Shown: one piece after another, positions 6,663 to 22,669 of the stretch | Position numbering within the stretch: position 1 is the stretch's first letter | Layout of the letters: every line of letters begins with the position of its first letter | IMG/VR virus record: IMGVR_UViG_3300009149_000308 | Coordinates: 1-22,744 of that record | DNA from: a virus | Length of the DNA stretch: 22,744 nt | Reading direction: 5' to 3' (one strand) | Notes under the pieces: generated by a model | Database searches by the model: none | What the model was told of the DNA's origin: nothing | What the model saw: only the letters and a program-made list of their open reading frames with translations | Translations under genes and position numbers: made by a program

Positions 6663-7223
6663 TTAGGAAGGTTGAACGGGGTTGAGCAGGTTCTTCTGGG
6701 GCAACATGCGGTCCACGCTGAACTCGACAGACATGACCAGGGCCTCTCCGCCGCCCATCGAGATGCTGATCTCGGGTTTGCTGACCGGGAACAGCCCCTC
6801 GAGCAGGTAAGACCGCTCGGAAGAGCCGTCACTCTGGAAGAGAACGGCGTGTCCCGTGGTCTTGACGGCTGCCATGGGGGCCATAAGCCCCGTGAATTCG
6901 TCGTAAACCAGCCCAAACCACTGCTCGATGATCCGCCGAGTGCCCGCGAGCGGGAAGTCTCGGAACTTCGCGGTGATGTTGCCTAGGGCGCGGGGCCCAG
7001 CGGCGTACTTCACGCGACCGTTGAGGTAGGGAAGCTCGGCCGTGTTGACCGATCGCCCTGGCAGGGTGAACTCTTGGATGCTGAGAGTCAGGATCTCTTT
7101 TCCGCCCGGGATGAGCCGGTCGATGTTGAGCTCCAGCATCCCCATGTTGTCCTTCTGGGGGTCCCAGATGGACGCAGCCTGCGAGAGAATCGCGCCGGCA
7201 TAGCGGTAAGGGGTAACGGGCAT
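6663..7223 (-). CDS. Tail tube protein, gp19-like
   Basis: 186 aa. It lies directly after the sheath gene and is preceded by a good ribosome binding site (AGGAGAA, spacing of about seven bases), as expected of an abundant structural protein. The sequence alternates beta-strands: LELNIDRLIPGGKEILTLSI, then FTLPGR, NGRVKYAAG, ALGNITAKFRDFPLAG, then a WFGLVYDE helix and ISISMGGGEALVMSVEFSVD at the end. This is the tail tube fold pattern in which hexamers stack inside the sheath. Length is typical (T4 gp19 is 163 aa). The sheath-tube gene pair is a strong context argument. Confidence 0.87.
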   Translation of the reverse strand: MPVTPYRYAGAILSQAASIWDPQKDNMGMLELNIDRLIPGGKEILTLSIQEFTLPGRSVNTAELPYLNGRVKYAAGPRALGNITAKFRDFPLAGTRRIIEQWFGLVYDEFTGLMAPMAAVKTTGHAVLFQSDGSSERSYLLEGLFPVSKPEISISMGGGEALVMSVEFSVDRMLPQKNLLNPVQPS

Positions 7224-7248: not shown

Positions 7249-10200
7249 TTAGATGCGGACTTCGGAGAAGTCAGCGCCGGACGGGGTCAGGATCAGGTCG
7301 TACTCGATGTTCTCGACGGCTCGAGCCGGCGTGATGAACAGCTTGCCGCGCACGCGGAGGTTGTTGACGTCGTCCGGCGTGGTGGTCGACGGGCTGACCT
7401 CGACGTGGGCGTCCTCGAGCCCTCGCCGCTCGACGATGGGGGCGAGGATGTCGTTGAGGGTCGCCTCCATCTCCCGGTAGAGGGTCGTGTCGTTCAGCTC
7501 AAACAGGAATTCCTGGCTCACGAAGTCGATCAGGTTCTGGATGACGTTGATCGTCCACTGAACGTTGATCCGGTCCGTGCTCGAGGGGTTCCGCTGGAGC
7601 GTCCGCTGCCCGAAGAGGGCCAAGCCGCGCCCGACCCGGTTGATGAAGACGTTGAGGCACTCCGTCCGGTTGCCCACCAGGCCGTAGAGCAGATCTCGGT
7701 CGTCCCGGCTCGGGCTGTAGGCGATGTCCGAGACCGTCAGGTTGCCTCGGCGGAAGCCAGCGATCGGGAACCAAGGCTTGGCGACCCGATCCGTGTTTCC
7801 GATCAGGCGCAAGCACTCACCCTCGCCCGGCTCCTCGACCTCCTGCGCGACGTACTCGTCCAGGTAGGTCACCCACTGGCCCGGGGTCGCCAGGAACTTG
7901 GAGTTGAGCTCGGCCGCAGGCGGGAAGGGCACCACGGCGGTGGCTACCGCCGGCTGGCCGATCCCCGCCGAGTTGAACTCGCCGTTGATGAAGTCGCGGT
8001 GGGCGAACGGGTCGGTCGTGTTGAACAGCGGGACCAGGCCGATGGCGTTCCGGCCTCGACGAGACGCAAGCGTCTGCAGCGCGATGATCACCTGGCGGTG
8101 CCACTGGCCCGGAGTCGCCACGAAGTTGAGCGGGACAAGCTCGGCATTCTGGAACTGCTGGATGCCGGTGTAGGTCTGGCCGACGCGCGCGCCGACGATG
8201 TCTCCCACCGTGAAGGCCCCGGTGAGGCCGATCGCCTGCGTGCCATCCACGTCCACCGTCAAGGTCGATCCGATGCTGGTCACCGCGATCCGAACGAAGT
8301 CCGAGCCGTTGACGGGGTCGTTTACCGCGTCGGCGAGCTCCTGCAGCGTGCTCCGCTGCCCGAAGGACTCCACGATCTCGGTCGCGCCGAAGCGGACCAG
8401 GAGGCGGAGAGTCGGGTTGGTGACCGGATCCGTGCTGGGGTCCTGCTCGACCTCGAACCAGAGGCCATCCGCGAGGATTGGGCGCTCGTTGCCGATGTCG
8501 CCGACGTAGCGAGCCGTCAGGTGGCCCACGGTGTCCTCGGCAATCACGAACACGGCCTCCTCGCGGACCGGCGCTCCCGTCCACTGGATCGAGGTCAGCC
8601 CCGACCCGAAGCTAAGGAAGTTGTCGGGGTCCGTCGCCACGACCACGTTGTCGAGCCAGAAGTCGTCGGCCGAGCTCGCGCCGAGCGCCGCCTGGGCGAC
8701 TTGGGGATCCCCCGCGCCGGCCAGGCTGATCTGCCCAGACTGGAACGCCCGGAGCCGGCCCGCAGCTCGGCGGTAGGGAGGCAGGCCGAGCTCGCCCGTG
8801 AAGGTGGTCTCAGTCCCGTCGCCGAACCCGAGGATCGTCGCTGGGGTGTAGACCGCCGTGATCGGGGCCGCGTCGGCCACGTCGAACGTCTGCGTCCCGG
8901 TGGTCTGCAGGTTCAGGGTGAACCCGAAGGCCCCCGTCTCATGGTTCAGGAAGTCCGAGCCACGGAGGCTGTTGGCCGCCGCGGGCGCGGTCTGCGCCAA
9001 TCCCCAGGCAGCCTCGGCAGCCGTGCCGAGGATCTGCGAGGTCGAGCCGCGGAGCGCGCGCTGAGCTTGCGTCCGAACGGCGGAAGTGTAGTCGCACTCG
9101 ATGGCGGTGGTCGCCGTGATGGCCGCACCTGGCGTGATGCTCCATTCGCCGGTGTCGTAGTCGATCGTGCCCGTGACGGCCGCCTGGCGGGGATCGCCCC
9201 GGCGGTGCGTCAGCCAGCCACCGAGGCCGTTGTCGTAGGCCACGAAGGGCGAGCCCGCCACGTCCGCGATCCGGAGCACGAGCGAGCCTGGGAAGATCGG
9301 CCCAGCGATCCGCACGGCGGTGCCGTTGGTGTCATCGGCCGAAGCGCCGCCGGCAGCCGACGTGTCGAGGGGCTCGGCGAGCTGGTAGGTGCCCACGTCG
9401 CCCGGGACCGCGTTCCCACCCTGGTTGACGATCTGGACGTCGTAGGTGGCCTGGAGTTGGGCCGCCGTGACGCCCGGGAAGGCCACGCCACCTACGGGGT
9501 CCCACGTCGTGGTCGCCCAAGCTCCCGTGATGTAGTCGATCGTGCCGCCGGGGACCGCAACGCCGCCGCCGAGGGGCGCGGTGCGGAGGCCACCGAGGCC
9601 ATCGTCGTAGATCGCGGGGGGAAGCGGGTCGGTCGTCGCCGTCGAGGGGGACAGAACGACCGTGCCGGGGACGATGTAGCCCGCCAGGCCCTTGAGGAGT
9701 GGGTCCGTCGAGTCCGCTGCGCTCGCGCCGAGCGGAACGTCGCCCACCTGCTCCTCAACGGAGTAGACGAGCACCGCCTTGTTGGCATTGAAGAAGCCAG
9801 GAGCGACCGGACCGTCGCTGAGCCCGCCGCTGTAGGCCCCGAGCCCTCGGGTGGTCGAGCCAACCGCCTCCGTCTGGCCTCCGACCCAGATTCCACCGAT
9901 GGTTCCGCCCACGAAGAAGGTCGCACCGTCGAGGCGGAGGGCAAAGGCACCCGTCCGGTAGTCGATGTAGCCCACCGCAGCCCCCGCGGACGGCTCGAGC
10001 ACGCCCACGCCGGACTGCTCGATCCCCGGAGCCCCCGGAGCCGAGTCGGCGAGCTCTTGGAAGACCGCTGCGGCCGTCTCGGCGCGAAGCGTGACCGTGC
10101 CGGGGACCACCGGGCCCCCGAGCGTGCCGTAGTAGGTCGCCAGGCCCGCCAGGGTGCCTGGAATGGTCAGCACGTCCTCGAACACGCGAGATCCCGCGAC

Positions 10201-10893
10201 CGGGTTCTGGGTGCCGTGGAACCGCTTGCCCGCCAGCGGGCCTGTCGAGGAGTCCGGCGAGCGGGTCGAGGCGAACGCCCCATCGTCACCGCCGTCGAGG
10301 TTGACGCGGTCGAGCTCGCCCGTCACGACGTTGGTCGTCTCGGCCGGGAACGTCGTGCCGGCTCCGTTTGCCAGGGTCACGCGGATCAAGCTCGACCCGC
10401 CGTTGATGCTGGTCTCGACGATCCCATTGTCCTGGTTGAGGTAGGTCTCGACCTGGTTGTTTCGCCGGTAGACGTAGACGTTGTAGGAGGTCGGCCCGCC
10501 CGCGCCCGGGTTGTGGACGATGGCGACCTGGATGTTGTCGCCGTCGGGATTGGCCCAGGTGCCTGCGTCGGCAGCCACGATGCCGAGAACCGGCACCAGG
10601 CCGGTCGCGTCGAGCAGACTGGCCGCAGCCGTGGCAAGGAGCGAGCCCGCAGCTCGGGAGAACTTGAGCTGGTTGCCCGACTTCAGGTAGCGGTTGCCCG
10701 CCCGCACGGCGTGCATCCGCTCGATGAGCGGACGGCCGTAGCGTTCCACGAACGCTCCCTCGTCGGCGAAGTCCTCGAGCCGGTTGACCGGCCCGCGCGT
10801 GGCGGGGCCGACGACACCGACGATGGCGTTGCTGGTGGCGGGAGCGAAGACGCTCGCGTCGAAAACGTTGATGTCAATGCCGGGGCTGACCAT
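7249..10893 (-). CDS. Contractile tail sheath protein, greatly enlarged (1214 aa)
   Basis: The N terminus (IVGVVGPATRGPVNRLEDF, residues about 24-42) and the C-terminal core (residues about 930-1214, with FPIAGFRRGNL, YSPSRDDRDLLYG, GRGLALFGQRTL, STDRINVQWTINVI and a final helix/strand block) are typical of phage sheaths. Sheaths are usually about 380-700 aa; here some 700 extra residues lie between the two ends. They include a sheath-like beta domain at about 104-178, a diverged second one at about 790-885, and at least three copies of a GTIDYxTGA-type beta module (about 262-330, 407-486, 533-603) with a partial fourth near 645-685. The frame is open throughout with uniform codon use, so this is one gene. 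The extra domains probably decorate the outside of the tail. The gene precedes the tube gene. Confidence 0.9.
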   Translation of the reverse strand: MVSPGIDINVFDASVFAPATSNAIVGVVGPATRGPVNRLEDFADEGAFVERYGRPLIERMHAVRAGNRYLKSGNQLKFSRAAGSLLATAAASLLDATGLVPVLGIVAADAGTWANPDGDNIQVAIVHNPGAGGPTSYNVYVYRRNNQVETYLNQDNGIVETSINGGSSLIRVTLANGAGTTFPAETTNVVTGELDRVNLDGGDDGAFASTRSPDSSTGPLAGKRFHGTQNPVAGSRVFEDVLTIPGTLAGLATYYGTLGGPVVPGTVTLRAETAAAVFQELADSAPGAPGIEQSGVGVLEPSAGAAVGYIDYRTGAFALRLDGATFFVGGTIGGIWVGGQTEAVGSTTRGLGAYSGGLSDGPVAPGFFNANKAVLVYSVEEQVGDVPLGASAADSTDPLLKGLAGYIVPGTVVLSPSTATTDPLPPAIYDDGLGGLRTAPLGGGVAVPGGTIDYITGAWATTTWDPVGGVAFPGVTAAQLQATYDVQIVNQGGNAVPGDVGTYQLAEPLDTSAAGGASADDTNGTAVRIAGPIFPGSLVLRIADVAGSPFVAYDNGLGGWLTHRRGDPRQAAVTGTIDYDTGEWSITPGAAITATTAIECDYTSAVRTQAQRALRGSTSQILGTAAEAAWGLAQTAPAAANSLRGSDFLNHETGAFGFTLNLQTTGTQTFDVADAAPITAVYTPATILGFGDGTETTFTGELGLPPYRRAAGRLRAFQSGQISLAGAGDPQVAQAALGASSADDFWLDNVVVATDPDNFLSFGSGLTSIQWTGAPVREEAVFVIAEDTVGHLTARYVGDIGNERPILADGLWFEVEQDPSTDPVTNPTLRLLVRFGATEIVESFGQRSTLQELADAVNDPVNGSDFVRIAVTSIGSTLTVDVDGTQAIGLTGAFTVGDIVGARVGQTYTGIQQFQNAELVPLNFVATPGQWHRQVIIALQTLASRRGRNAIGLVPLFNTTDPFAHRDFINGEFNSAGIGQPAVATAVVPFPPAAELNSKFLATPGQWVTYLDEYVAQEVEEPGEGECLRLIGNTDRVAKPWFPIAGFRRGNLTVSDIAYSPSRDDRDLLYGLVGNRTECLNVFINRVGRGLALFGQRTLQRNPSSTDRINVQWTINVIQNLIDFVSQEFLFELNDTTLYREMEATLNDILAPIVERRGLEDAHVEVSPSTTTPDDVNNLRVRGKLFITPARAVENIEYDLILTPSGADFSEVRI
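9085..9297 (-). repeat. Sheath beta-module copy C (residues about 533-603)
   Basis: Protein-level repeat: FPGSLVLRIA, VAYDNGLGGWLTH, TGTIDYDTGEWSI, then TTAIECDYTSA. A partial further copy (residues about 645-685, 8839-8961) keeps only the HETGAFGFTL and ITAVYT part. Confidence 0.75.
9436..9675 (-). repeat. Sheath beta-module copy B (residues about 407-486)
   Basis: Protein-level repeat with all landmarks: IVPGTVVLSPS, IYDDGLGGLRT, GGTIDYITGAWATTTW and a final LQATYDVQ. Same landmark order as copy C and as the capsid module at 21905-22108. Confidence 0.75.
9904..10110 (-). repeat. Sheath beta-module copy A (residues about 262-330)
   Basis: Protein-level repeat. It begins VVPGTVTLRAE and later has VGYIDYRTGAFALRLDG. 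The DDGLGG segment present in copies B and C is not clear here, so this copy is diverged. Boundaries are approximate. Confidence 0.65.
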
Positions 10894-10896
10894 GGC

Positions 10897-11655
10897 TTAG
10901 TCCTCCGCTTCGACGACGGCGGTGTCGAGAAGTATGGGCTGGTTGGGGTCGGTTGAATCGCAGATGTCGAGCTCGATGGATTGGACGAGGCGAGCCTCTT
11001 CCGGGCGGTAGGGCAGGAAGCCCTCGATCCGTCCCGCCCAGGTCCACCGAATCATCTTGGCTCCCTCGCCGGACTCCAAGTCCGACGTGTCCTGCCAACC
11101 GTTGTTGATCAGGCGAAAGCGAGTGGCCCCGTAGAACGCGGCGTGGGCCAGCACGTCTCGTGCTGGCGGCTTGTAGAGTTTGGGGTTGTCCCAGTTGATC
11201 GGCAAGTAGACCGACTCCGCGATGAACTGGAGCTCGATCTGGGCCGAGCAGGTCTGGGCCTTGACCCACCCGCCGTTCCCGCCCGCCCACAGGTCCACCT
11301 GGACGTCGGCTTGAACGGGCCTGGGGTGGCGCATCTTGGTCGCGTTGCCGGTCGCCCGGTCCTTGGTCGTTCCCCGGAACGTGTGGGTGCTGAACCTCGA
11401 GGGGTCGAACGAGAAGGGCTGGACGAGGATGCTGAAGAACGGCGTCCACGACGGCCGATCCCCAATCTGCTGGGGGGTGAGCCCGTGCGCCCCGGTCGCC
11501 TTGCTCACGCGCGAGCCCGCGGCCCGCTTCATTTCCCGCTCCATCTCGGTGAACGCGCGGTCCGGCCCAGCGAACACGGCGGGCACGGGTTGACCGTTCC
11601 ACTCCGCTCGGCGGAAGAAGGCTTTGACGGCTTCGGTAAAGGGCGCGTAGATCAA
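10897..11655 (-). CDS. Putative tail terminator or proximal-sheath protein (gp15/gp3-like)
   Basis: 252 aa if started at the TTG at 11653-11655. Beta-rich segments with many aromatics are visible: WTPFFSILVQPFSFDPSRF, then VQADVQVDLWAGGNGGWVKA, YLPINWDNPKLYKPP, ATRFRLINNGWQDTSDL and IRWTWAGRIEGFLPY. The gene lies between an HK97-gp10-like protein and the sheath, where tail terminators and sheath-capping proteins are encoded, so it probably caps the tail or joins it to the neck. The start is unusual: no good ribosome binding site, and the gene is in the same frame as the upstream gene, only six codons after its TGA. Coupled re-initiation or some stop readthrough is possible. Family membership is inferred mainly from position. 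Confidence 0.6.
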   Translation of the reverse strand: MIYAPFTEAVKAFFRRAEWNGQPVPAVFAGPDRAFTEMEREMKRAAGSRVSKATGAHGLTPQQIGDRPSWTPFFSILVQPFSFDPSRFSTHTFRGTTKDRATGNATKMRHPRPVQADVQVDLWAGGNGGWVKAQTCSAQIELQFIAESVYLPINWDNPKLYKPPARDVLAHAAFYGATRFRLINNGWQDTSDLESGEGAKMIRWTWAGRIEGFLPYRPEEARLVQSIELDICDSTDPNQPILLDTAVVEAED

Positions 11656-11659
11656 AGGT

Positions 11660-11671
11660 GCAGACGTCTGC
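11660..11671. other. 12-bp perfect palindrome GCAGACGTCTGC between two tail genes
   Basis: The sequence gcagacgtctgc is its own reverse complement. It lies between the TGA of the gp10-like gene and the TTG start of the next gene. It could form a small RNA stem or be chance; no second copy was noticed. Confidence 0.4.
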
Positions 11672-11673
11672 GC

Positions 11674-12345
11674 TCAGGAGAGGCGCTCGAGGGCTTGGCG
11701 GAGCGTGGCCGCCTGAACGTCGGGGCGAAGTTGCCGAAACCGAGCCACGACAGCTCGGATGGTGGGACCCCAATGGGGCCTGGCGGGGAGCTTCTTGCTC
11801 GAGGAGCCCAGCTCGAGGAGTCGGGCTAGCTCGTTGTAGGTGAAGCCTGAGTAGTGCTTGCCTGGCTTCAGCCGGACCATGTAGTAGACACCACCCTTGA
11901 CCTGCTCGCCACGAAAGACCTCGATCGCATTCGTGTAGTCGCCCTCGCGGATGAGGATGCGACCGTCGAGCCCCTCACGCGCCTTGCGCTTGGCGTAGGG
12001 CTCAGAGAGCGGCTCATGGGGGAAGGGGGTTCGGTCCGCGAGCTCAGCGCCGGGCTTGCGCTTCCTCGGCGGGCGGGGCACGGGGAGCACGCCAGGTCGC
12101 GGGGAGATCTGCGGGACGGCTGCGTAGAGCCGGTCCAGTATGAGCTCGCGGCCTTCCTCGCAGAGCACGCGGGAGGTAGTCGCCGTGACGTCCACCGCAG
12201 CTCGGGGGAGGAGAGGCATCAGGGTCGGGATCCGCTTAACCGTGATGGTCCGGCCACCCGGCGTCGTCACGGACCGGACGCGGGTCACGGCGGTGCGATT
12301 CCGCTTGCCTGCGGGGAGGAGTCGGAAGGGGTCTAGCCTAGCCAT
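11674..12345 (-). CDS. Tail completion protein, HK97-gp10-like
   Basis: 223 aa from the ATG at 12343-12345, which lies 13 bases inside the preceding gene and has GAGGA upstream at suitable spacing. The frame extends further upstream, but that part is an overlap with the gp14-like gene and is not needed. The C-terminal half matches the gp10-like head-tail joining family: YNELARLLELGSSSKKLPAR followed by PHWGPTIRAVVARF, like the usual 'A-x-x-x-E-F/L-G, then PARP, then P-x-hydrophobic' ending. The N-terminal half is basic with proline-rich parts (PVPRPPRKRKPG). These proteins help join the tail to the neck. It sits between neck and tail-terminator-like genes, which agrees. Confidence 0.68.
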   Translation of the reverse strand: MARLDPFRLLPAGKRNRTAVTRVRSVTTPGGRTITVKRIPTLMPLLPRAAVDVTATTSRVLCEEGRELILDRLYAAVPQISPRPGVLPVPRPPRKRKPGAELADRTPFPHEPLSEPYAKRKAREGLDGRILIREGDYTNAIEVFRGEQVKGGVYYMVRLKPGKHYSGFTYNELARLLELGSSSKKLPARPHWGPTIRAVVARFRQLRPDVQAATLRQALERLS

Positions 12346-12962
12346 GGCGGCGTCCTCGTGTCCTGGGGCACCAGGTTCGGGGGCCGGGGCATGTTCTGTC
12401 GGTCCGAGAACTCGAGCGGGTCGCTGATGTCGTCGGTGAGGATCACGCAGGTCCCCTCCCACGTCATGGCGATGTCGGTCGGGCCTAGGTAGCTCTCCTT
12501 GCATTGCAGGATCTGGAAGAAGCGGCGCGAGTAGAGCACCACGTCGCCGGGTCGCGGGATCAGGAGCTTCTCGTCGCTGGTCACGCCAGGGATCAGGCCG
12601 ATCAGGGAGTCGTCCTGCTGGTCGAGCTCGACACCAAGCCGGCGCGCCTCGGCACGCGAGAACCCGAACGTGGCGGGGGAGGTCCCATCCGTAGAGACGC
12701 GCCCCCGCTTCTGGCCCTTCTGGCGGCCGGTCGGGTCGATGTAGATGTGGATCGGGCAGGGCGGCGCAAACTTGCGCTCGAGGTCGAGGGCCTCGCCGAA
12801 GACGTCGTCCTGGGCCGTGCCGCCTGGAACGTAGTCGGTGAGGAGCCGCCAGTACCACCTGGCGGGGAGCGAGCGTCGGTCGAACTTGGCCTGCTGACGC
12901 AAGATCAACTGCTCATGGGCCGCGTACTGGACGGGCCAGGTCTGTCCTCGATCAACGGTCAA
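12333..12962 (-). CDS. Neck protein, gp14-like
   Basis: 209 aa from a TTG at 12960-12962. No ATG or GTG precedes it in frame before the stop at 13002-13004, and no clear ribosome binding site is present, so the exact start is uncertain. The body resembles the T4 gp14 neck family: DYVPGGTAQDDVFGEALDLE, then PIHIYID, ATFGFSRAEARRLGV, LLIPRPGDVVLYSRRFFQIL, and MTWEGTCVILTDD. In that family this order (LFGE, an IEMY-like strand, F-S-K-FG, then R-P-x-x-GD, then F-Q-I) is characteristic. gp14 works with gp13 to close the filled head before tail docking. The gp13-like candidate here lies about 5.6 kb upstream, beyond the fibre genes. Confidence 0.72.
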   Translation of the reverse strand: MTVDRGQTWPVQYAAHEQLILRQQAKFDRRSLPARWYWRLLTDYVPGGTAQDDVFGEALDLERKFAPPCPIHIYIDPTGRQKGQKRGRVSTDGTSPATFGFSRAEARRLGVELDQQDDSLIGLIPGVTSDEKLLIPRPGDVVLYSRRFFQILQCKESYLGPTDIAMTWEGTCVILTDDISDPLEFSDRQNMPRPPNLVPQDTRTPPWLG

Positions 12963-13039
12963 CTTATCGTCCCAGATGCCGAGGGAGTCAGGTCCCCCGT
13001 TTCACCTCGAGACAGGGTATCTCATCGGGCCGACGCGCA

Positions 13040-13450
13040 CTAGCCGACTTCTTCCTCCGAAGGCTCTTCCTCGTCGAGCTCGGGCGGCATCTTGAACATC
13101 TTGGAGTCCGAGTAGCACGAGACTCCCATGGCTGTCCGCTTGAGGTGCTCGGACCCCTCCTTGCGAGCTGCGCGCGCCTCCTTGAGGCTGGCCCTTCGCA
13201 TCGTCAGCCGCTCGGCCGGGGGAAGCCCATGAACGCCTGAGCCCGGAGAGTCCCGAATTGTGACATCTTGGATTGCGGGCAAGGGCGACTCATCGACGGC
13301 GCGCTGCGCGTGCTCCAGCAACACGTCATTGGCCGCACTCCTGGCCGCCTTGGACGCTCGGAGGCGGTCTAGGATCGAGAGCCGCGGGCGATCCTCCTGG
13401 GGCTGAGACGCGGACGGCAACGGCATGGGAGGGGGAGGAGACATAGGCAC
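13040..13450 (-). CDS. Hypothetical protein, proline-rich start and acidic end
   Basis: 136 aa if the GTG at 13448-13450 is used, 134 aa from the ATG two codons later. AGGAGG (13456-13461) overlaps the upstream stop and lies five bases from the GTG and eleven from the ATG, so either can serve. The first 20 residues are almost all Pro, Met, Ser and Ala; the middle is helical and rich in Ala and Arg (RLTMRRASLKEARAARKEG); the last 13 residues are very acidic (ELDEEEPSEEEV). No domain recognised. It may be an assembly or scaffold-like helper or an accessory protein; I have no evidence for a specific function. A gap of 77 bp with no recognised promoter separates it from the next gene. Confidence 0.72.
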   Translation of the reverse strand: MPMSPPPPMPLPSASQPQEDRPRLSILDRLRASKAARSAANDVLLEHAQRAVDESPLPAIQDVTIRDSPGSGVHGLPPAERLTMRRASLKEARAARKEGSEHLKRTAMGVSCYSDSKMFKMPPELDEEEPSEEEVG

Positions 13451-13459
13451 AAGAACCTC

Positions 13460-14038
13460 CTAGGTGGGGAGCTTTCGCTCGATGAGATCAAGCCGACGGA
13501 GGGAGTCCTCCATCATTCGTCGGGTTTCTTTGTGGGAGGCTAGGGCTTCCTCCATCAGCCGGCGGTTATCCATGTGAGCCGCCGTGTAGCCCTCAAGCGC
13601 CTTGGCTGTGGCGAGTTGACCCTCCTGGGCCTCACGGTCACGGTCGAGCATCTCTCGGAGGAGCGACTCCTGCTCGGCGAGCCGACGGTTGTGCGACTCC
13701 TCCTTAGCCCGCTCCCTCTCCGCGGCACCCTCACGGGTCTTCTTCACTCGGTCTTCGGCCAAGTCCTGGGCCTTGGTCTCCCGCAGCTCGGCCGCCTCGA
13801 GTTGGCGAGCTTGGAAGGCGTTGTTTCGCTTGAGCTGCCAGAAGGCGAAGCCGCCCATGACCACCGCGAGCGCCAGGCAGATGAGGGGAACCCCACCCGC
13901 TTGGATCCGCTCGAGGAGGCTGAGCCCCTTGGCCGCGCCCTCGAGATCCTGAGCCAACACCAAGAAGCCCATCGTCACTCCAACACCCGTCGTGGCCGCA
14001 CCAGCTCCTAGAAGTCTAGCCGAAGGGGCAGACGCCAT
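13460..14038 (-). CDS. Membrane-anchored coiled-coil protein (possible lysis or spanin-like role)
   Basis: 192 aa, with a GGAGTAGG ribosome binding site before the ATG. Two hydrophobic segments lie at about residues 9-29 (GAGAATTGVGVTMGFLVLAQ) and 48-68 (GGVPLICLALAVVMGGFAFW), followed by a long charged helix from about 70 to 185 rich in Arg, Glu, Ala and Lys with heptad-like spacing. This topology suits an inner-membrane protein with a long coiled-coil, as in some i-spanins or holin-linked proteins, but those usually have a single anchor and a periplasmic helix, and no partner o-spanin lipobox is seen. It is in a cluster with a four-helix membrane protein. Function not known. Confidence 0.72.
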   Translation of the reverse strand: MASAPSARLLGAGAATTGVGVTMGFLVLAQDLEGAAKGLSLLERIQAGGVPLICLALAVVMGGFAFWQLKRNNAFQARQLEAAELRETKAQDLAEDRVKKTREGAAERERAKEESHNRRLAEQESLLREMLDRDREAQEGQLATAKALEGYTAAHMDNRRLMEEALASHKETRRMMEDSLRRLDLIERKLPT

Positions 14039-14068
14039 GACCTACTCCTGCGAGCTCGCGCGGGGCCG

Positions 14069-14380
14069 TTAACCCTGGTTGATCTTGAACCCGCCCTTGG
14101 CGAGCTTGGCGACGACGGGAATCAGCGCCTTGAGGACGGTGGCAGCGATCGGGTCGATGATCGCGTCCGGCCCCCAGAGGTCGGTCTCGGCGAGCACGAA
14201 GTCGATCATGCCCTCGGCGGTCGCGTGCTTGTCCTCGTTGCTCATGCTGGTCACCCGCTCGGTGATCTCCATGACCAGCGGGACGATGACAGCCAGGTCG
14301 CTGAGTTGGAAGTCGTCCTTGAGGGTCTCGACGATCTTGGCCGAGTGCTCTTTGATCTGCTCGGGGGTGAATGCGCTCAT
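14069..14380 (-). CDS. Small helical protein of unknown function
   Basis: 103 aa from the ATG at 14378-14380, which overlaps the upstream stop as ATGA (14377-14380) and has AAGAGG upstream. A further in-frame GTG exists upstream but would lie inside the previous gene. The protein is helical, with a middle hydrophobic helix (LSDLAVIVPLVMEITERV), an acidic stretch (FVLAETDLWGPDAIIDPIA) and an ending ALIPVVAKLAKGGFKINQG. The pattern of several helices ending in a K-G-x-x-K-I-N segment is one I associate with small helical proteins in large phages, but I cannot name a function. It lies in a group of small membrane or helical genes after the fibres. Confidence 0.75.
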   Translation of the reverse strand: MSAFTPEQIKEHSAKIVETLKDDFQLSDLAVIVPLVMEITERVTSMSNEDKHATAEGMIDFVLAETDLWGPDAIIDPIAATVLKALIPVVAKLAKGGFKINQG

Positions 14381-14787
14381 GGGGCCTCTTCTTCTTTGGG
14401 GGGTAGGGCCTGGGGCCACCACGCAGCTCCGACGAAGAAGCCGATCGCTGCGAGGACAAGGTTGGCGTAGTTGAAAGTTGGGAGCTCGACGAAGTGGTTT
14501 AGGACATCACTCCCGAGCAAGATAGCAACGGGGACAGCTACCCGCATCCAGAACACCTTCCGGCGCACCTCGAGCGGGAGCCGGTCGCCCTCGGCCTGAT
14601 TCCAAAACAGATGCCCCATCACGACCATCAGCGTGAAGGGCAGCGAGTAGAAGCGGTGCGAGAGGTCGCGGACGATCTCGCTGATGGTGTCGCCCTCGGT
14701 GGCGTTGTAGGCGACCTCGATGTCCCAGATCAGCAAGATCAAGGCGGCCGAGCCCAGGAGGACTGAGGTGATCTTGCGGCTGTTCAC
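14377..14787 (-). CDS. Four-transmembrane protein, candidate holin-like
   Basis: 136 aa, GTG start at 14785-14787, eleven... bases after the previous stop and with only a weak ribosome binding site. Four hydrophobic segments are visible: about 6-24 (ITSVLLGSAALILLIWD), 48-62 (SLPFTLMVVMGHLFW), 80-97 (MRVAVPVAILLGSDVLNH) and 107-125 (ANLVLAAIGFFVGAAWW). The tail ends in acidic residues (KEEEAP). Its size and topology would suit a holin or superinfection protein, but no endolysin is seen next to it, so the lysis role is a guess. It overlaps the next gene by ATGA. An integral membrane protein of the host inner membrane is the safest description. Confidence 0.72.
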   Translation of the reverse strand: MNSRKITSVLLGSAALILLIWDIEVAYNATEGDTISEIVRDLSHRFYSLPFTLMVVMGHLFWNQAEGDRLPLEVRRKVFWMRVAVPVAILLGSDVLNHFVELPTFNYANLVLAAIGFFVGAAWWPQALPPKEEEAP

Positions 14788-14797
14788 GAGGCAGGCC

Positions 14798-16812: not shown

Positions 16813-16814
16813 GA

Positions 16815-17111
16815 CTACGCGAAGGTCGCGAGCGACTCGATCTGGATGCGATCACCCGTCTTCACCTTTTTCGTGAAGGTGACCTGCGTGGCAGACACCC
16901 ACGTCGTGTCCTCGGCTGCACCGCGAGACTGGAGCACACCGTTGCGCCAGATTTTGTTTCGGTTGTCGTCGCGGAACAGGGCTGCCGTGGACTGCATGAC
17001 GGGGGTACCGAAGGTCGCGAAGGTCGTTGTCGTCCCGGTCCCGCTGAACACGCCGGTCTGGACGTTGAACGTCTCGCCCGCAGCCGCGTTCGCTGTGACC
17101 ACGAACACACG
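16815..17111 (-). repeat. Shared appendage C-terminal module, copy 2
   Basis: Protein-level repeat, residues about 268-365 of this gene, including the stop codon in the coordinates. Landmarks in order are FNVQTGVF, a F-x-D-D segment, NGVL, TWVSATQVTF, then a K-V-K-T-G-D ending. Copy 1 is at 17922-18215. Confidence 0.7.
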
Positions 17112-17912
17112 GTAGGGCAGTCGCGCAACCACAGCGCTGGGGTCGATGATGTCGGGAAGCTGCCCACCGCCGAGCAAGGCCCCACGGTCCAGGTTGTAGA
17201 AACTCTGCTGGAACGGCAACTGGAACTGGTAGGTGGCTGCCGGGAGTGAGACGGCAACGATCACGTCAGTCGCCGGGTTCACTTTGACGAACGACATCTG
17301 AAGGTTCTCAGACGCCGCAGCGGCAACCGCCGTTCCGTCCGTGGTGCCCGCGAGCGCCTGCAAGATGCCGAACACGCGCGCCCCACCGTCGAGCGGCGGA
17401 TCGTTCGTCCCGTCGAGGAAGATGTCCACGACGTTGAGCAGACGGCCCGCCGCAGAGAGCACGGTGCTCAACCCAGCCACCGGAGTGCCTGCAACCGTGA
17501 ACCCGGCCTCCAGGGCAGCGATGTAGGCGTTGTTCTGCACCGATGATGCGCCAACGGCGATGATCCCTGCACCTCCCGCCAGCATGGCGGCGCTCACAGC
17601 GCGGACACCTGCCGCCCCGCCGAGCGTGAAGGCGTTGGCAGCCACGAACGGGGAAATGAACGCGAGCTTCTTGTCGTGGATCTGCCGCAAGCCGAAACTG
17701 TCGAGAGCCGTGGCGATGTCCACGAACCAGTCAGCGGTCCCCGCTAGCCCCTGGGGGTCGATGATTCGGCGAATCTGGGACCGCTGTGCGTTCAGATCGA
17801 ACAGTAGGTTCTGGTTGATCGCCGCAGGGGATTCCAGCCCAGCGCCCGCCGCAACGGTGTCGTCGTAGACATCGCTGTTGCGGATCTGGGTCTCTTGGTC
17901 TAGGTCACTCAT
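16815..17912 (-). CDS. Phage appendage / tail fibre structural protein
   Basis: 365 aa with AAGGA before the ATG. The N terminus (SDLDQETQIRNSDVYDDTVA, then NQNLLFDLNAQRSQIRRIID, ending WFVDI) is a pattern I recognise from phage fibre or structural proteins: an attachment segment followed by a helix. The middle part (about 95-170) is Ala/Gly-rich, with FTLGGAAGVRAVSAAMLAGG. The C-terminal module (about 268-365: TFNVQTGVF, RDDNRNKIWRNGVL, WVSATQVTFTKKVKTGDRI) is shared with the gene just upstream. It probably assembles with that protein, or both dock on the same partner. No enzyme motif seen. Its exact place in the virion is unknown. Confidence 0.7.
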   Translation of the reverse strand: MSDLDQETQIRNSDVYDDTVAAGAGLESPAAINQNLLFDLNAQRSQIRRIIDPQGLAGTADWFVDIATALDSFGLRQIHDKKLAFISPFVAANAFTLGGAAGVRAVSAAMLAGGAGIIAVGASSVQNNAYIAALEAGFTVAGTPVAGLSTVLSAAGRLLNVVDIFLDGTNDPPLDGGARVFGILQALAGTTDGTAVAAAASENLQMSFVKVNPATDVIVAVSLPAATYQFQLPFQQSFYNLDRGALLGGGQLPDIIDPSAVVARLPYRVFVVTANAAAGETFNVQTGVFSGTGTTTTFATFGTPVMQSTAALFRDDNRNKIWRNGVLQSRGAAEDTTWVSATQVTFTKKVKTGDRIQIESLATFA

Positions 17913-17921
17913 GGGCGTTCC

Positions 17922-18215
17922 TTATGCGGTCGGGAAGGGGGCCCGCACCAGCAGTGTGTCTTTGTTCTTTACCTTGATCGAGAGCTTAATCTGCGTAGTG
18001 GAGACCCACTCCGCAACACCATTCCCAGAACCATCACCCTTCGGGAGTTCCTGGCCGTTCAGTTTGGTCTCGATGCGACCATCGTCTTTGAACGCTACAC
18101 CGGAAACCGGGAACGTGACATCAGAGTCTCCGGTAACCGGCGCGGGAGATCCAGCGCCGCCGTAGACGCCCGTCTGGATGTTGATGGCGGTCCCCGGCGT
18201 GACCGTGGCTGTGAA
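17922..18215 (-). repeat. Shared appendage C-terminal module, copy 1
   Basis: Protein-level repeat, residues about 132-228. Landmarks in order are INIQTGVYGG, a F-K-D-D segment, LNGQEL, EWVSTTQIKL, then K-V-K-N-K-D. It aligns over its whole length with 16815-17111. Confidence 0.7.
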
Positions 18216-18608
18216 GGGGCCGAGCACCACCTCCCGCAGCTCGAAACTGTTGAAGTCGAGGATGGCCTCGCCAGCGCCCCCCACCGTCAAGGAGTCGTTC
18301 GGGACGGTGATGATGTCGGTCGGGTCTATGTCGGGAGAGCCGTCGAGCTCACGCACGCGGATTCCACCACCAGCGGCGATCTGCGCCTGCAGATCGGCGT
18401 CGAGCTCGGCGAACGTCACCTGAGTCCCGCCTGGGCTCATGGGATCGCCGGCAGGCATCGGTCGCCGCGGGAAGTAGGGCTCGAGAACCTTCCGCTCACC
18501 GTAGCGTGCCTCGGCATCCTCGACAGCCAGGTCTCGGATCTCTAGCTGCTGCTCGGCGTCCCGGCGGTAGTCATGGAGAACGCGAGGCTTGCGCTGCCCT
18601 GGAATCAT
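17922..18608 (-). CDS. Phage appendage / structural protein
   Basis: 228 aa, beginning in the few bases after the neck-like gene. Residues 1-45 are charged and helical (RKPRVLHDYRRDAEQQLEIR), probably the docking part; a linker and a small segment TQVTFAELDADLQAQI follow; residues about 130-228 are the beta module shared with the next gene (INIQTGVYGG, VAFKDDGRIETKLNGQELPK, EWVSTTQIKLSIKVKNKDTL). Its TAA stop overlaps the next gene's AAGGA ribosome binding site. Following a neck-like gene, it may form neck whiskers or the base of a fibre. Function is inferred from context and not recognised from a family. Confidence 0.65.
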   Translation of the reverse strand: MIPGQRKPRVLHDYRRDAEQQLEIRDLAVEDAEARYGERKVLEPYFPRRPMPAGDPMSPGGTQVTFAELDADLQAQIAAGGGIRVRELDGSPDIDPTDIITVPNDSLTVGGAGEAILDFNSFELREVVLGPFTATVTPGTAINIQTGVYGGAGSPAPVTGDSDVTFPVSGVAFKDDGRIETKLNGQELPKGDGSGNGVAEWVSTTQIKLSIKVKNKDTLLVRAPFPTA

Positions 18609-18611
18609 CAG

Positions 18612-19532
18612 CTACCCGATGTAACGAGGGGGCGGAACGCTGCTCTGCGCGGCCTCGAGCTTCTCGCGGATCTCGTTGATCTCTTCCTTGCCCTCGGAGC
18701 GCAGCTCGGACGCATCGGTGTCGATCGCACCCGCCGGGCCGGGGATCGCGCCCCTCGAGCCGAGAATGCGGGCGGCCGTTCGCTTCGCGTAGCCCACGGC
18801 CACCGTCACGAAGTCGTGCTCGTGGTCGGGCGGGATCTCGTCGAGCTGCCGGCGGCGGCTCGTCAGCACCATGGCGCGCGTGTTGCGGGCCGGCGACATG
18901 AGGTAGAGGACCCGGCTGCCGGCATCCCACCGCCAATCGGGGCGCGTGCCGGTGAGGCGCTCGTAGTTGCGCTCGGCTACGTGGAGCTCAAAGAAGAGCC
19001 TCGGCCCCTGGTAGCCCCAGCGCAGGTAGGTGCTGCTCAGGACGCCTGAGCCCGCGCCTAGGGCCCGGCGGTCCCGGTCGCTGAACTCGACGTCCAGAAC
19101 GCGCTGCACGAAGCCGTAGGGGTTCCCCTGGGCGTCGGCCTGGGGGCACCCCCTCTTGAAGAAGGTGATGGGCAAGGTCTGGGAGGTGGGCACGTCGAAG
19201 GGGAACCAAGCCAGGAGCGGCCGGTGCTTGTTCCAGAGCTGGAGGGCCCGCTTCAGTGCGTGGTCGAGGTTCTGCTCGCTGAGCTCGACATCCACGCCCT
19301 CGCCGCCAAGCTCCTCGAGAATCTGCCGGCGGTATTCCTCCCGCTGGAGATTGCCGACTGCGTTGGGGCCCGGCTGCGACGACTGGCCGTAGACCGGGGG
19401 ACCTGGCACGCCACTCGCCGCAGGGGGGCACGGGGTGCGCCCGAACTCGTCCGTGTTGGGGTCGTAGCCGTTCGGGTAGAACGAATTCTCCCCGACCGTG
19501 GCTCCCGCCGGTAGTTCAGGCGTCCCCGCCAT
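18612..19532 (-). CDS. Neck-region structural protein (gp13-like candidate)
   Basis: 306 aa. Residues 1-60 are low-complexity Gly/Pro-rich. Residues about 64-115 (REEYRRQILEELGGEGVDVE, then SEQNLDHALKRALQLWNKHR) match the helical opening of many phage neck and head-completion proteins, where acidic residues and 'ALxLWxKHRP' precede a strand. Residues about 115-230 are strand-rich (LPITFFKRG, VLDVEF, YLRWGYQGPRLFFELHVAER). The C terminus (about 265-306) is a charged helix (RSEGKEEINEIREKLEAA). It lies between unknown head genes and the appendages, consistent with a head-closure or neck subunit. gp13 itself is not demonstrated; the family is only resembled. Confidence 0.6.
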   Translation of the reverse strand: MAGTPELPAGATVGENSFYPNGYDPNTDEFGRTPCPPAASGVPGPPVYGQSSQPGPNAVGNLQREEYRRQILEELGGEGVDVELSEQNLDHALKRALQLWNKHRPLLAWFPFDVPTSQTLPITFFKRGCPQADAQGNPYGFVQRVLDVEFSDRDRRALGAGSGVLSSTYLRWGYQGPRLFFELHVAERNYERLTGTRPDWRWDAGSRVLYLMSPARNTRAMVLTSRRRQLDEIPPDHEHDFVTVAVGYAKRTAARILGSRGAIPGPAGAIDTDASELRSEGKEEINEIREKLEAAQSSVPPPRYIG

Positions 19533-19540
19533 CGGTCAGC

Positions 19541-20059
19541 CTAAAGCCCGAGCTTGCTGCCGAGCAGCTCGCGCAGGATCTCGGTCCGCTTCGGCGTGCC
19601 GAGCTCGACCTCGATGCCGTGCTTCTCCGCCAACTGCTCGAGCTGGGACTTCTTCATGAGGATCAGGTCTCGCTTCTTCTGGGGATCCGCGATGAACTTC
19701 TTGGTCTTCGGCTCCTCGGGCTCCCCGAGCGTCAGGGCGAGCTCAGCCTTCGGCGGCTTGGGGGTCTCGATCACCTTGTGCTTCGGGACGCTCGGCCCGG
19801 CCGCGCGCTTCGCCTCGTCGCGCTTCTTCTCGGTCTTGATGGCAAGGTCGTTGCGCCGGTTGGCGTTGACCTGGGGCCCCACGCGATCCGTGCGATCCCC
19901 GGTGTGGATCTCAGGCCGGGTCTCCGTGAGCTCGTGAACGAGGTTCGTGGGGATGGCCTGCTGGTCCTTCTGGGTCACCGCCGCGCCGGGCCGCAGGGTG
20001 CGCGATGCACCCTGCCGCCCGCCGTGCCCGATGATCAACCGTCGTCGGCTGACGCGCAT
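19541..20059 (-). CDS. Basic protein with HeH/SAP-like C terminus
   Basis: 172 aa from the ATG at 20057-20059. A longer in-frame version exists, but it would overlap the upstream gene, while this ATG follows that gene's stop by two bases and has AGGTGG upstream. The body is basic and low-complexity (KTEKKRDEAKRAAG, ETPKPPKAELALTLGEPEEP). Residues about 137-168 (LILMKKSQLEQLAEKHGIEV, then GTPKRTEILRELLG) have the helix, extended turn, helix pattern of HeH/LEM or SAP-type domains, which bind nucleic acid or proteins and are common in small phage head proteins. Probably a head-region accessory protein. A role with DNA is inference. Confidence 0.68.
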   Translation of the reverse strand: MRVSRRRLIIGHGGRQGASRTLRPGAAVTQKDQQAIPTNLVHELTETRPEIHTGDRTDRVGPQVNANRRNDLAIKTEKKRDEAKRAAGPSVPKHKVIETPKPPKAELALTLGEPEEPKTKKFIADPQKKRDLILMKKSQLEQLAEKHGIEVELGTPKRTEILRELLGSKLGL

Positions 20060-20061
20060 CG

Positions 20062-20532
20062 TTAGGCCACCTGGTCCTTGGCCGCTTGAGCTCGGGAGAT
20101 CAGGTCCCCATACTGCTCCTCGAACTTCTTGCGGTCCTTCGCCTCGAGCTTCTCCCAGGCGTAGAGGCACCACTCGGGGGGAAGGTCGCCCGAGCGACGG
20201 AGGCGCTGCTGCTCCAGCTCGAGGCGGCGAGCCGGAGACACCGCGCTCAGGGCCTGGAGGCCGGTGAACACGGGCAACGCGAGGACGGTCCCGTAGTAAT
20301 CGCCCTGGACGCGGTCGCCGGGGTAGATCCGGCCCGAGTCGCCCGGAATGTGAGCCGGCGAGCCGATGATGATCGGCGACGAGCTCGCGTTGATGTAGAT
20401 GTTGCCGGGGAGGTCATCCTCGTCGCCCGCCCAGACGTAGAGCGCGCGGGTTTGCTCCTGCGTCATGGGCTTCGACGTGTCGGTCCGCACATGCTTGCGG
20501 GGGTCGATCTTGGGCTCTGCTTTGGTCGTCAT
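20062..20532 (-). CDS. Hypothetical head-region protein
   Basis: 156 aa, with GGAG about eight bases before the ATG. The N terminus is basic and polar (TTKAEPKIDPRKHVRTDTSK). The middle is strand-rich: LPGNIYINASSSPIIIGSPA, then GRIYPGDRVQGDYYGTVLAL. The C terminus is helical and charged (ARRLELEQQRLRRSG, KLEAKDRKKFEEQYGDLISR). I do not recognise the family. The genes on either side of it, a PAS protein and an HeH-like protein, do not reveal a pathway; lying behind the capsid gene it may be a head decoration or portal-side protein. Confidence 0.72.
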   Translation of the reverse strand: MTTKAEPKIDPRKHVRTDTSKPMTQEQTRALYVWAGDEDDLPGNIYINASSSPIIIGSPAHIPGDSGRIYPGDRVQGDYYGTVLALPVFTGLQALSAVSPARRLELEQQRLRRSGDLPPEWCLYAWEKLEAKDRKKFEEQYGDLISRAQAAKDQVA

Positions 20533-20605
20533 TGGGTGCTCCGTGCCCCTAGTCTAGCAAAGGGGCCTGCCGGGTTAGTAGGTCTCTCAAGGTATCCGAA
20601 TGCGC

Positions 20606-20633
20606 GCGCCCTGGCAATCGTCTGCCACGGCGC
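20606..20633 (-). other. Hairpin just after the PAS gene
   Basis: An 11-bp stem (GCGCC-c-TGGCA against TGCCA-c-GGCGC) with one C/C mismatch and a six-base loop (ATCGTC) begins six bases past the PAS stop. The minus strand has no T-run after it, so it is not a classic intrinsic terminator. It may be an RNA processing or protecting hairpin, or a weak terminator. Confidence 0.5.
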
Positions 20634-20638
20634 TTCTG

Positions 20639-21049
20639 CTACGCGGGGAACTCCATCTGGTCAAGGTCGATGTGGTCGGTCAAGTCCACCGAGTAGACAG
20701 CGACCGCCACCACCGTCCCATCGTCGCCTAGCATCGGGATCTTGTCGGTCCGGACCCAGCGGACCTGGCCCGTCTTCGGGTGCCGCAGAGTCTCGATGAT
20801 GTTCCGCTTCGCCCGCCCCGCGCGCAGGACCTCCCGGTCGTCCAGGGTCCACTTCCGCGTCCACGCCGAGGGCCACCAGTCATCCTGGTTGGTCCCCTCC
20901 ATCTGGCTCGGCGTAGTCCCGCCAGCTCGGGCACCACTCTGGTTACACCAGAGGATGTTCCCGCCCTCATCCTTGACCCAGACGCACGTCGGACACTCGT
21001 CGAGGAGGGCCTTCAGGAGATCGAGTTGTTCGCGTAGCGATTCGTCCAT
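20639..21049 (-). CDS. Stand-alone PAS-domain protein
   Basis: 136 aa from the ATG at 21047-21049. A GTG four codons upstream overlaps the AGGAGG (21061-21066), so the ATG with 11-base spacing is the better start. Residues about 11-126 form a complete PAS domain: LDECPTCVWVKDEGGNILWC then N-Q-S-G-A, a G-T-N-Q-D-D-W-W-P segment, EDR-like DDREVLRAG, HPKTGQVRWVRTDKIPMLGD and AVAVYSVDLTDH. This is the pattern of bacterial sensory PAS domains (PAS_4-like). No kinase, cyclase or DNA-binding domain is attached, so it may act as a sensor or by binding a host protein. It lies between the capsid terminator and head genes. It looks captured from a bacterium. Confidence 0.85.
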   Translation of the reverse strand: MDESLREQLDLLKALLDECPTCVWVKDEGGNILWCNQSGARAGGTTPSQMEGTNQDDWWPSAWTRKWTLDDREVLRAGRAKRNIIETLRHPKTGQVRWVRTDKIPMLGDDGTVVAVAVYSVDLTDHIDLDQMEFPA

Positions 21050-21097
21050 GCCCGAGCTCACCTCCTAGAAGTTCTCCCGAGCCTGCCTAGGCGTCTA

Positions 21098-21113
21098 TCA
21101 TCAGGTCTGATGA
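21098..21113. promoter_or_regulatory. Dyad TCATCAG-GT-CTGATGA upstream of the PAS gene
   Basis: Perfect 7-bp inverted repeat with a two-base centre, about 50 bases before the PAS start, on the far side of the capsid terminator. It is placed like an operator for transcription of the downstream genes. I cannot point to convincing -35 and -10 boxes beside it. It could also be a small RNA stem. Confidence 0.45.
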
Positions 21114-21144
21114 CAGGTGCGCTGGCCTCGAGCCCTCGCCGCAC

Positions 21145-21176
21145 ACGAAACAAGCCCGCGGGTCTCCCCGCGGGCT
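21145..21176 (-). terminator. Intrinsic terminator after the major capsid gene
   Basis: A perfect 10-bp GC-rich stem (AGCCCGCGGG at 21153-21162 and CCCGCGGGCT at 21167-21176) with a four-base loop, followed on the minus strand by TTGTTTCG. It begins about 26 bases after the capsid stop codon. The T-tract is imperfect, but stem strength and placement support termination of the minus strand transcript. Confidence 0.85.
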
Positions 21177-21202
21177 CGCTCCCTAGATCGTCGCCGGCCT
21201 CG

Positions 21203-22669
21203 CTAGAGGTTGGTGACGATGATGGTCCCGATCATGTTCGGGTCGATGGTCTTGATCACGTACTCGGTCAGGAGTGCGACGTCCTTGCGGAAGGCGCGAA
21301 CGTGAACGGGCGACTTGTACATCGGAATGTAGTCGCCGACGACGGCAGCGGTCGAGACGAACTCGGGCCCACGGTAGGTGAGCAGAGCCTGGTCGGCCGG
21401 GTAGGTCGGGTCGCAGAACACGTCGAGGTCCTGCTTGGTCAGGCGGCCGACGAAGCGCGGACCGGCGATGCCGTCGTTGCTGTACTGAACGCCCTCGAAC
21501 CCGTCTTGGAACTCGACGATGAACATCAAGCTCGGGTGGATCACGCAGACGTTCGGGCGCGTGGTCTGCGTGGCCTCCCAGATCAGGTTCTGGAGCCGCG
21601 AGATGTAGAGCGAGAACGTCTTGAGGTGATCGCGGTAGCTCACGCCGGTCGGCGCGAGGTTGTCAAAGATGACCGTCCCACCCTGAGCCTGACGACGCAG
21701 AGTGTTGACCACATGCTTGAACTTCTCCATCTGGATCAGTCGCGCACCGGCCTCGATGATCGTCGGCTCCGCGTTGATGCCGAAGTCGTTCAGGAAGTCG
21801 ATGACCGACTGCTGACTCCAGCTCGCGCCGAGCGCGCGCGGGCGAGCTTGGACCGTCTCAGCCTTGAGCTGGATCCCGTACTCGGGGAGCTCGATGGCGG
21901 CTTCGATGTTGTAGTCGTAGCTCGCACGAGGCGTGTCGGTCGTCGCAGCCGCGAAGCGGACGCTGAGGATCTTCGTGACGTAGTTGATCGTGTTCGTGAC
22001 GCCACCGCCAGGCGCGCCAACGTCACCGACCAGGTTGCCGTTGCCGTCGTCGCGGATCACCTGCGTGCCCGCCACGATCGTCAGCGTGCGCGGAATGACC
22101 GGCCCGTAGCCCAGCTCGAGCGGAGCGGCCGTGGTGCCGTAGTCGGTGCCGCCAGCGACGCCGAGCTCCTCGCCAGGGTCGCGGATGTGCTCGGACGAGA
22201 AGTCCTCGGTCCCGCGGAAGCCCTGGAGGCTGTCGAACATGGAGGCGCGGTTGGGGATCGCACCCTTGCTGCGCTCGGTCACGATGTCGAGGTAGTGAAT
22301 CCGGCCCAGGCGGTTGCTCATGGGCTGAACCGAGATGACCCGGTCGAGGATGTCCTCGGAGTTGGCCGCGGCGATGAGCGCCAGGCCGTTCTTCACCCAG
22401 GCGGGCAAGCTCGCCCGACTGGTCTCGAGGAGCTCACGGTTGGCCGTGGTCTCCTTGAGGAAGTTCTCCATCATGATCGCGACGCGGGTTTCGAGCCACG
22501 GATCGATGTCGCCGTTTCGATCCTCTAGGATCTCCATCGGCTTGAAGGTCTTGATGCCGAGATCGGCATCCGAGAACTCCTTGAAACGCTTGACCTTCTT
22601 CTCGAACTTCTCGACCAACTTGTTGGTCAACCGCCGGGAACGCTGGCGGTGGGCAGCGGTAGCGAGCAT
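21203..22669 (-). CDS. Major capsid protein, gp23-like (HK97 fold)
   Basis: 488 aa, with AGGAGAT before the ATG. The N-terminal third has long charged helices (LTNKLVEKFEKKVKRFKEFS, VAIMMENFLKETTANRELLE), as in gp23-type precursors. The core resembles T4 gp23: ELPEYGIQLKAETVQARPRA, then LGASWSQQSVIDFLNDFGIN with an A-E helix. In gp23 the same place reads K-A-E-T/S-R-A-L-K-x-x-Y/W-S-x-E-x-x-Q-D. The end (RFVGRLTKQDLDVFCDPTYP, TYRGPEFVSTAAVVGDYIPM) matches the gp23 C-terminal pattern with a 'Y-K-G' strand. Residues about 188-255 hold an additional beta module shared with the sheath. A strong terminator follows. No visible cleavage site (I did not look for one reliably). Confidence 0.85.
   Translation of the reverse strand: MLATAAHRQRSRRLTNKLVEKFEKKVKRFKEFSDADLGIKTFKPMEILEDRNGDIDPWLETRVAIMMENFLKETTANRELLETSRASLPAWVKNGLALIAAANSEDILDRVISVQPMSNRLGRIHYLDIVTERSKGAIPNRASMFDSLQGFRGTEDFSSEHIRDPGEELGVAGGTDYGTTAAPLELGYGPVIPRTLTIVAGTQVIRDDGNGNLVGDVGAPGGGVTNTINYVTKILSVRFAAATTDTPRASYDYNIEAAIELPEYGIQLKAETVQARPRALGASWSQQSVIDFLNDFGINAEPTIIEAGARLIQMEKFKHVVNTLRRQAQGGTVIFDNLAPTGVSYRDHLKTFSLYISRLQNLIWEATQTTRPNVCVIHPSLMFIVEFQDGFEGVQYSNDGIAGPRFVGRLTKQDLDVFCDPTYPADQALLTYRGPEFVSTAAVVGDYIPMYKSPVHVRAFRKDVALLTEYVIKTIDPNMIGTIIVTNL
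21905..22108 (-). repeat. Sheath-like beta module inside the capsid protein (residues about 188-255)
   Basis: Protein-level match to the three sheath modules. In order it has VIPRTLTIVAGTQV, IRDDGNGNLVGD, TNTINYVTKILSVRF and a final SYDYN. Just behind it starts the gp23-core segment EYGIQLKAET, so the module is an insertion before the core. Confidence 0.7.

Follow-up and report, generated by a model that had tools for sequence, protein, structure and literature searches.

Do the major capsid protein (MCP) and the tail sheath of one phage carry copies of the same β module, and if so, how old are these copies and what might they do? The question is raised by IMG/VR record IMGVR_UViG_3300009149_000308, a linear virus fragment of 22,744 bases that was analyzed over its full length (the window) and carries its virion genes on the minus strand. 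The window is a genome fragment of an uncultured T4-like myovirus and encodes a gp23-type MCP and a gp18-type tail sheath (Table 1). An original prediction had proposed that a single β module recurs at MCP residues 188–255 and at sheath residues 262–330, 407–486, and 533–603; all four segments are found at these positions, on the minus strand.

Evidence for a module common to capsid and sheath

Relatives were collected by a single-protein scan, which gave eight loci with a sheath match (seven of them with full-length sheath relatives, 50–53% identity), and by an alignment scan, which gave 25 sheath loci and 13 MCPs (62–81% identity). Among IMG/VR records, no MCP relative was found by single-protein patterns and 13 were found by alignment of three. 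A module profile, A5, matches exactly four places in the window, one in the MCP and three in the sheath; A5 includes rows from the window itself, so independent tests weigh more. Profile-profile alignment of the predicted segments was carried out using hhalign, with an MCP-only profile (14 rows) and sheath-only profiles (eight rows). Against the MCP module, sheath copies 2 and 3 scored almost alike (Prob 93.2 and 93.1, with E 2.9e-7 and 3.2e-7) and copy 1 scored lower (Prob 67.9, E 4.8e-5), and sheath copies 2 and 3 aligned with one another (Prob 98.8, E 1.3e-16); sheath regions outside the copies gave a Prob of <2 against the MCP profile. The observed MCP/sheath scores (43.5, 42.4, and 31.4) lie far above the top null score (23.7) obtained when the columns of the MCP profile were shuffled 200 times. 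A profile made from sheath copies 2 and 3 only lands on the MCP module of GXN1 (E 3e-4), QdP_Psa3 (E 1.6e-3), RHph_TM30 (E 2.2e-3), LIS04 (E 4.6e-3), the window (E 0.066), and P1 gp23 (E 0.22), with E-values calculated at Z=1000. With composition correction switched off, a blastp comparison between the MCP and the sheath found copy 3 (E 1.3e-4) and copy 1 (E 0.002).

The module comprises about 70–75 residues arranged around two hairpins, with turns at D-D/N-G-x-G and Y-x-T-G. In sheath copy 1 the DDG landmark is interrupted by an insertion of about 10 residues and the last strand is indistinct. A Pfam search with 19 module sequences, read to E 10, gave no relevant match, the curated Ig-like families (Big, I-set, fn3, and others) included, although a relation to these at the level of fold is possible, and the three PHROGs that contain the module (6128, 1014, and 9261) are all of unknown function. 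A PDB sequence search with the MCP alone gave no match, and the module profile gave weak PDB matches only, including P1 gp23 (E 0.66). Arylsulfate sulfotransferases and a cohesin were also among these weak matches and were judged to be chance.

In an AlphaFold2 model of the MCP (12 rows), residues 161–250 are predicted with a predicted local distance difference test score (pLDDT) of 70–87, and the A-domain of the model matches T4 gp23 (Z 11.2). A model of sheath fragment 226–618 (17 rows) has a pLDDT of 74, with most module strands at 80–90. A VIA-align ranking of the sheath model, covering Foldseek’s top 1000 PDB chains, gave as best match the P1 head protein gp23 (9ukm_A, residues 197–304; Z 7.8, root-mean-square deviation (rmsd) 3.1 over 89 residues, 21% identity), which covers model residues 275–383, i.e. 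sheath residues 500–608 (copy 3). The modeled copy 3 is compact and β-rich, with the fold of the P1 insertion domain (I-domain), and the P1 motifs VVDNGSGSL (244–253) and LNYNIG (271–276) fall approximately at DNGLGGW and IDYDTG of copy 3, in a register computed from the alignment ends. The second match of copy 3 was chain 2G of the Streptomyces coelicolor contractile injection baseplate complex (PDB 9gtp; Z 6.2, 22% identity over 85 residues), which is structurally similar to copy 3 but is neither sheath nor capsid, and the third match of the sheath model was the S6 capsid 7x30_A (Z 5.5). Copies 1 and 2 matched immunoglobulin (Ig) and other sandwiches weakly (Z about 3.5–5). The MCP model from residue 160 onward aligned with 9ukm_A from residue 199, with an rmsd of 13.4 over two domains. 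In BFVD, the sheath model matches the MCPs A0A8S5SVR6 and A0A8S5MDV5 (prob 1.00), and the MCP model matches the sheath A0A6J5S5A9 of another uncultured phage (E 1e-5, prob 1.00, rmsd 4.4 over 110 columns, 31% identity); as far as these predicted structures go, the likeness between head and tail runs in both directions.

Short hairpin motifs (DGxG, YxTG) may arise repeatedly in β-rich virion proteins, and the likeness might be convergent, given that few letters are conserved and these form turns, that no Pfam family covers the module, and that single-sequence matches are weak. However, hhalign aligns 63–87 columns in order (E 5e-5 to 3e-7), which 200 composition-keeping shuffles fail to reproduce, the sheath-only profile lands on the correct place in distant MCPs, and the structural matches between MCP and sheath are reciprocal. 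Convergence is hardly credible in the light of these results. The MCP/sheath likeness is best read as homology, and the segments are almost certainly copies of one homologous β module, as had been predicted.

Positions and old, slot-by-slot inheritance of the copies

The MCP module lies between a YSSE-like segment and a PEYGI...RALGASWS segment, the place of T2 gp23’s own insertion. Alignments with P1-independent relatives and T2 place it where gp23 has its insertion, ahead of the P-domain segment of the HK97-fold MCP, and there it would constitute the I-domain of the gp23-type HK97 fold, as in P1. The P1 gp23 I-domain (PDB 9ukm) resembles the window module in its HK97-fold MCP slot and in its hairpin motifs (VVDNGSGSL ... 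LNYNIGQ), and it ranks first among the PDB matches to sheath copy 3. P1 differs in having one detected copy in its genome, in the MCP gene (profile match E 5.7e-4), whereas the window phage also has serial sheath copies. The same sequence family occupies the equivalent MCP slot in LIS04, GXN1, QdP_Psa3, and RHph_TM30, with a weaker likeness in Molly_1 and LR756511; SP-15, like P1, has one profile match, in its MCP gene. No further copy was detected in any of the eight reference phages with an MCP copy by profile. SP-15, LIS04, GXN1, QdP_Psa3, and RHph_TM30 are thus similar to the window phage in module family and MCP position, but have one detected copy per genome and none in the sheath. The SP-15 MCP gene (L002:5480–7997) is annotated as two joined pieces round a putative endonuclease gene, an intron-like arrangement.

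The insertion domain of T4-type gp23/gp24 is in the same MCP position, but the segment sequences differ: T2 (searched at E up to 1) and Pseudomonas phage 30-2 gave no profile match, and similarity of the module to the T-even gp23 insertion domain was not recognizable in T2 at that threshold, although the two may be distantly related in fold. Another ten T4-like phages also lacked a match in the profile search, which shows only the limited reach of the profile. GTDB genome contigs contained no MCP relative, hence no host lead.

The sheath has the conserved gp18-type core of N- and C-terminal parts (PHROG 23, tblastn, and alignment), and its C-terminal third aligns with T4-like sheaths by tblastn. 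Between the two parts lies an insertion of almost 600 residues that is missing from the sheaths of SP-15, LIS04, Molly_1, and QdP_Psa3 (494–512 residues). With three modules inserted in its core, the sheath is of the multi-domain (type 3) kind (Evseev et al., 2022; PMC9230969), which likewise has β-rich domains between N- and C-terminal core; the available portion of that study differs in reporting no sequence link between the Ig-like domains of type 3 sheaths and an MCP insertion domain. More distant sheaths (31–34% identity) have three to five module matches each. An eroded fourth copy is proposed in the window sheath because a canonical copy in three relatives (L079, L082, and L083) aligns with its residues 687–796 (E 1e-13 to 4e-9). 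Other sheaths show weak matches near this place (E 6e-4 and 1e-3), and in the window clade no fourth copy is significant by profile, the call resting on position in relatives. The three modules and the putative eroded fourth stand in series between the N- and C-terminal core. Two sheath relatives found via the C-terminal core (L084 and L085) have a sheath without the module, and one weak match occurs in an 823-residue open frame of these records. Among catalogued T4-like phages, six that gave sheath matches, some of them multi-domain, were without a match to the module profile, and tblastn of 50,697 phage records gave no match to a module from L015. The sheath module region likewise had no match in these records, and the eight reference phages have an MCP copy only, in agreement with the earlier view that presence in both proteins is unusual, here among catalogued phages.

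The larger related contigs have 7–11 module matches each, although not every contig spans all carrier genes. The MCP accounts for one of these and the sheath for three to five. A protein of ~345 residues and another of ~300–360 residues, both encoded upstream of the MCP, carry two copies and one copy, respectively; beyond the sheath, two to four are present in a protein of ~980–1100 residues, a Pfam Baseplate_J match (above the cut-off in one contig, below it in the other), and one in a Tail_P2_I protein of ~400–430 residues. The two proteins upstream of the MCP are candidate head surface proteins. The window shows modules only in MCP and sheath because it stops before the upstream pair and starts after the Baseplate_J/Tail_P2_I pair.

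In a weakly resolved tree of 79 modules (75 columns), the ten MCP copies of the clade form one group (99/96), as do the clade sheath copies of slot 1 (100/99) and slot 2 (99/98). Both slots of the 345-residue protein group by slot across phages (second slot, 100/99), and so does the 300-residue protein (96/86). Twelve slot labels require 20 changes on the tree versus 57 in shuffles. Sheath slots 2 and 3 are close together, which would fit duplication within the sheath. The module had been described in the original prediction as mobile, and a recent jump between MCP and sheath genes could explain why several unrelated virion proteins per phage carry it and why sheath copy numbers vary. The tree shows no sign of recent MCP-sheath exchange, however, and in no phage was a sheath copy seen to group firmly with the MCP copy of the same phage. 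Recent mobility is accordingly very improbable; since module copies from different phages of the clade group according to carrier protein and slot, they are old rather than recently moved.

A putative outward structural brace

The P1 gp23 I-domain is β-rich, protrudes outward, and touches the P-domain of the neighboring capsomere (PMC12810830), and extra sheath domains sit away from the tube, with stability or adhesion proposed as their role (PMC9230969). The proposal that the module is a surface domain is plausible by equivalence with these two placements. On the same analogy, the copies may face outward and brace neighboring subunits: in the head, the I-domain would rest on the P-domain of the next capsomere, and on the tail, the serial modules would lie outside the sheath rings, contributing stability or bulk rather than catalysis. 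We lean slightly towards such an outward structural brace as the role of the module; host attachment is possible as a secondary role.

Weak glycan binding has been proposed for Ig-like phage domains, and the head, sheath, and baseplate copies could act as a surface adhesin that weakly binds a host or environmental glycan. The match of the sheath model to the CBA120 tailspike TSP4 (Z 5.2) and to fiber pieces, together with the several exposed parts that carry copies in relatives, is consistent with such a role, and adhesion has been proposed as a contribution of extra sheath domains (PMC9230969). Hypervariability of the module, a sign of receptor binding, was not seen in the window clade: mean MCP identity is 65% in the module, compared with 74–85% in the P and A domains and 45% in the linker, and sheath identity is 55–59% in the modules versus 53–56% in the core. 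The conserved positions appear to be turn and core residues, with no common surface patch, and within one phage the likeness between head and sheath copies does not exceed that of their counterparts elsewhere. We prefer an outward brace to adhesion because this conservation is unlike that of a variable receptor binder, and consider an adhesin unlikely. The suggestion that head and tail copies bind the same target likewise found no positive support, since within one phage they are not mutual nearest relatives in the tree, turns and core are what seems to be conserved, and variability is not in excess. It is quite improbable that the module serves the virion as a general attachment point, at which each copy, whether on head, sheath, baseplate wedge, or tail protein, would bind one and the same partner or one kind of edge strand, with a single soluble fiber or decoration protein coating the whole particle.

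As a whole, the observations are probably best explained by a shared I-domain-type module, serial in the sheath, that braces outward. Several points weigh against this explanation. The MCP model is poor overall (mean pLDDT 53, predicted template modeling score 0.29), though the module is confident; apart from the module itself, only the N-terminal region and the core of the A-domain are better modeled, so that the MCP fold as a whole is not confirmed. The Z of 7.8 for the P1 match is within the range where unrelated matches occur, and copy 3 is the sole sheath copy matched structurally to P1. Superposable folds had been expected, and the models agree with this in part: copy 3 matches the P1 MCP I-domain and the MCP model matches a sheath, each by way of its own database matches. 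Finally, the putative exposure and bracing are drawn from P1 and from sheath studies.

Gene context and significance

The features of the window and of related contigs are collected in Table 1. Directly after the MCP in the virion gene cluster is a PAS-domain protein, a sensory-type domain that is unexpected among virion genes. Two adjacent proteins have a common C-terminal stretch, a second domain shared within the phage that is unrelated to the β module. Two proteins between the head and tail genes have apparent membrane segments and no Pfam match, and one of them has a long coiled-coil-like tail.

Table 1. Features of the window and of related contigs (contig positions carry the contig name)
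Feature	Position	Strand	Basis
MCP, gp23 type, 488 residues	21203..22669	-	Pfam Gp23 E 4.8e-21; PHROG 138 major head protein E 5e-17
MCP module, residues about 185-255, gp23 insertion-domain position	21905..22117	-	profile A5 E 3e-27
Tail sheath protein, gp18 type, 1214 residues	7249..10893	-	PHROG 23 tail sheath E 3.8e-39
Sheath insertion holding modules, residues about 232-800, between N- and C-terminal core	8494..10200	-	sheath alignments
Sheath module copy 1, diverged	9919..10125	-	profile A5 E 5e-12
Sheath module copy 2	9433..9690	-	profile A5 E 8e-22
Sheath module copy 3	9085..9309	-	profile A5 E 8e-27
Putative eroded fourth sheath copy, residues about 687-796	8506..8835	-	canonical copy at aligned place in relatives
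Tail tube	6663-7223	-	PHROG 45 E 2e-12
Baseplate proteins	low end of window		Phage_GPD-like and Phage_base_V
PAS-domain protein, 140 residues	20639-21061	-	PAS_4 E 2.8e-15
Two adjacent proteins with common C-terminal stretch (~91 residues)	17922-18608 and 16815-17912	-	29% identity, E 2e-4
Two proteins with apparent membrane segments	13460-14038 and 14377-14787	-	
Module proteins upstream of MCP in relatives	L115:4077-6216 (-); L027:3124-5096; L024:4453-6391; L032:4004-6016		no Pfam match
Baseplate_J-like (several modules) and Tail_P2_I (one module) proteins in relatives	L111:2593-7108 (-); L113:1752-5869 (-)		

Ig-like domains are widely spread over phage structural proteins, and both MCP insertion domains and extra Ig-like sheath domains are already known; the caution in the original prediction that the domain might not be new was well placed. 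What is new is that one sequence family serves both as MCP insertion and in the sheath, and a partial literature search found no paper linking MCP insertion and sheath domains by sequence. The insertions of capsid proteins and the additional domains of sheaths have been treated as separate subjects, and here a single family fills both roles in one phage; in relatives its carriers further include a baseplate wedge protein and a tail protein I, along with two proteins encoded beside the capsid gene. The finding supplies a profile for a module that has no Pfam family and is present in PHROGs only in families of unknown function. It also opens a concrete way to test where capsid insertion domains and sheath decoration came from, with one old building block used in several places on a single virus particle.

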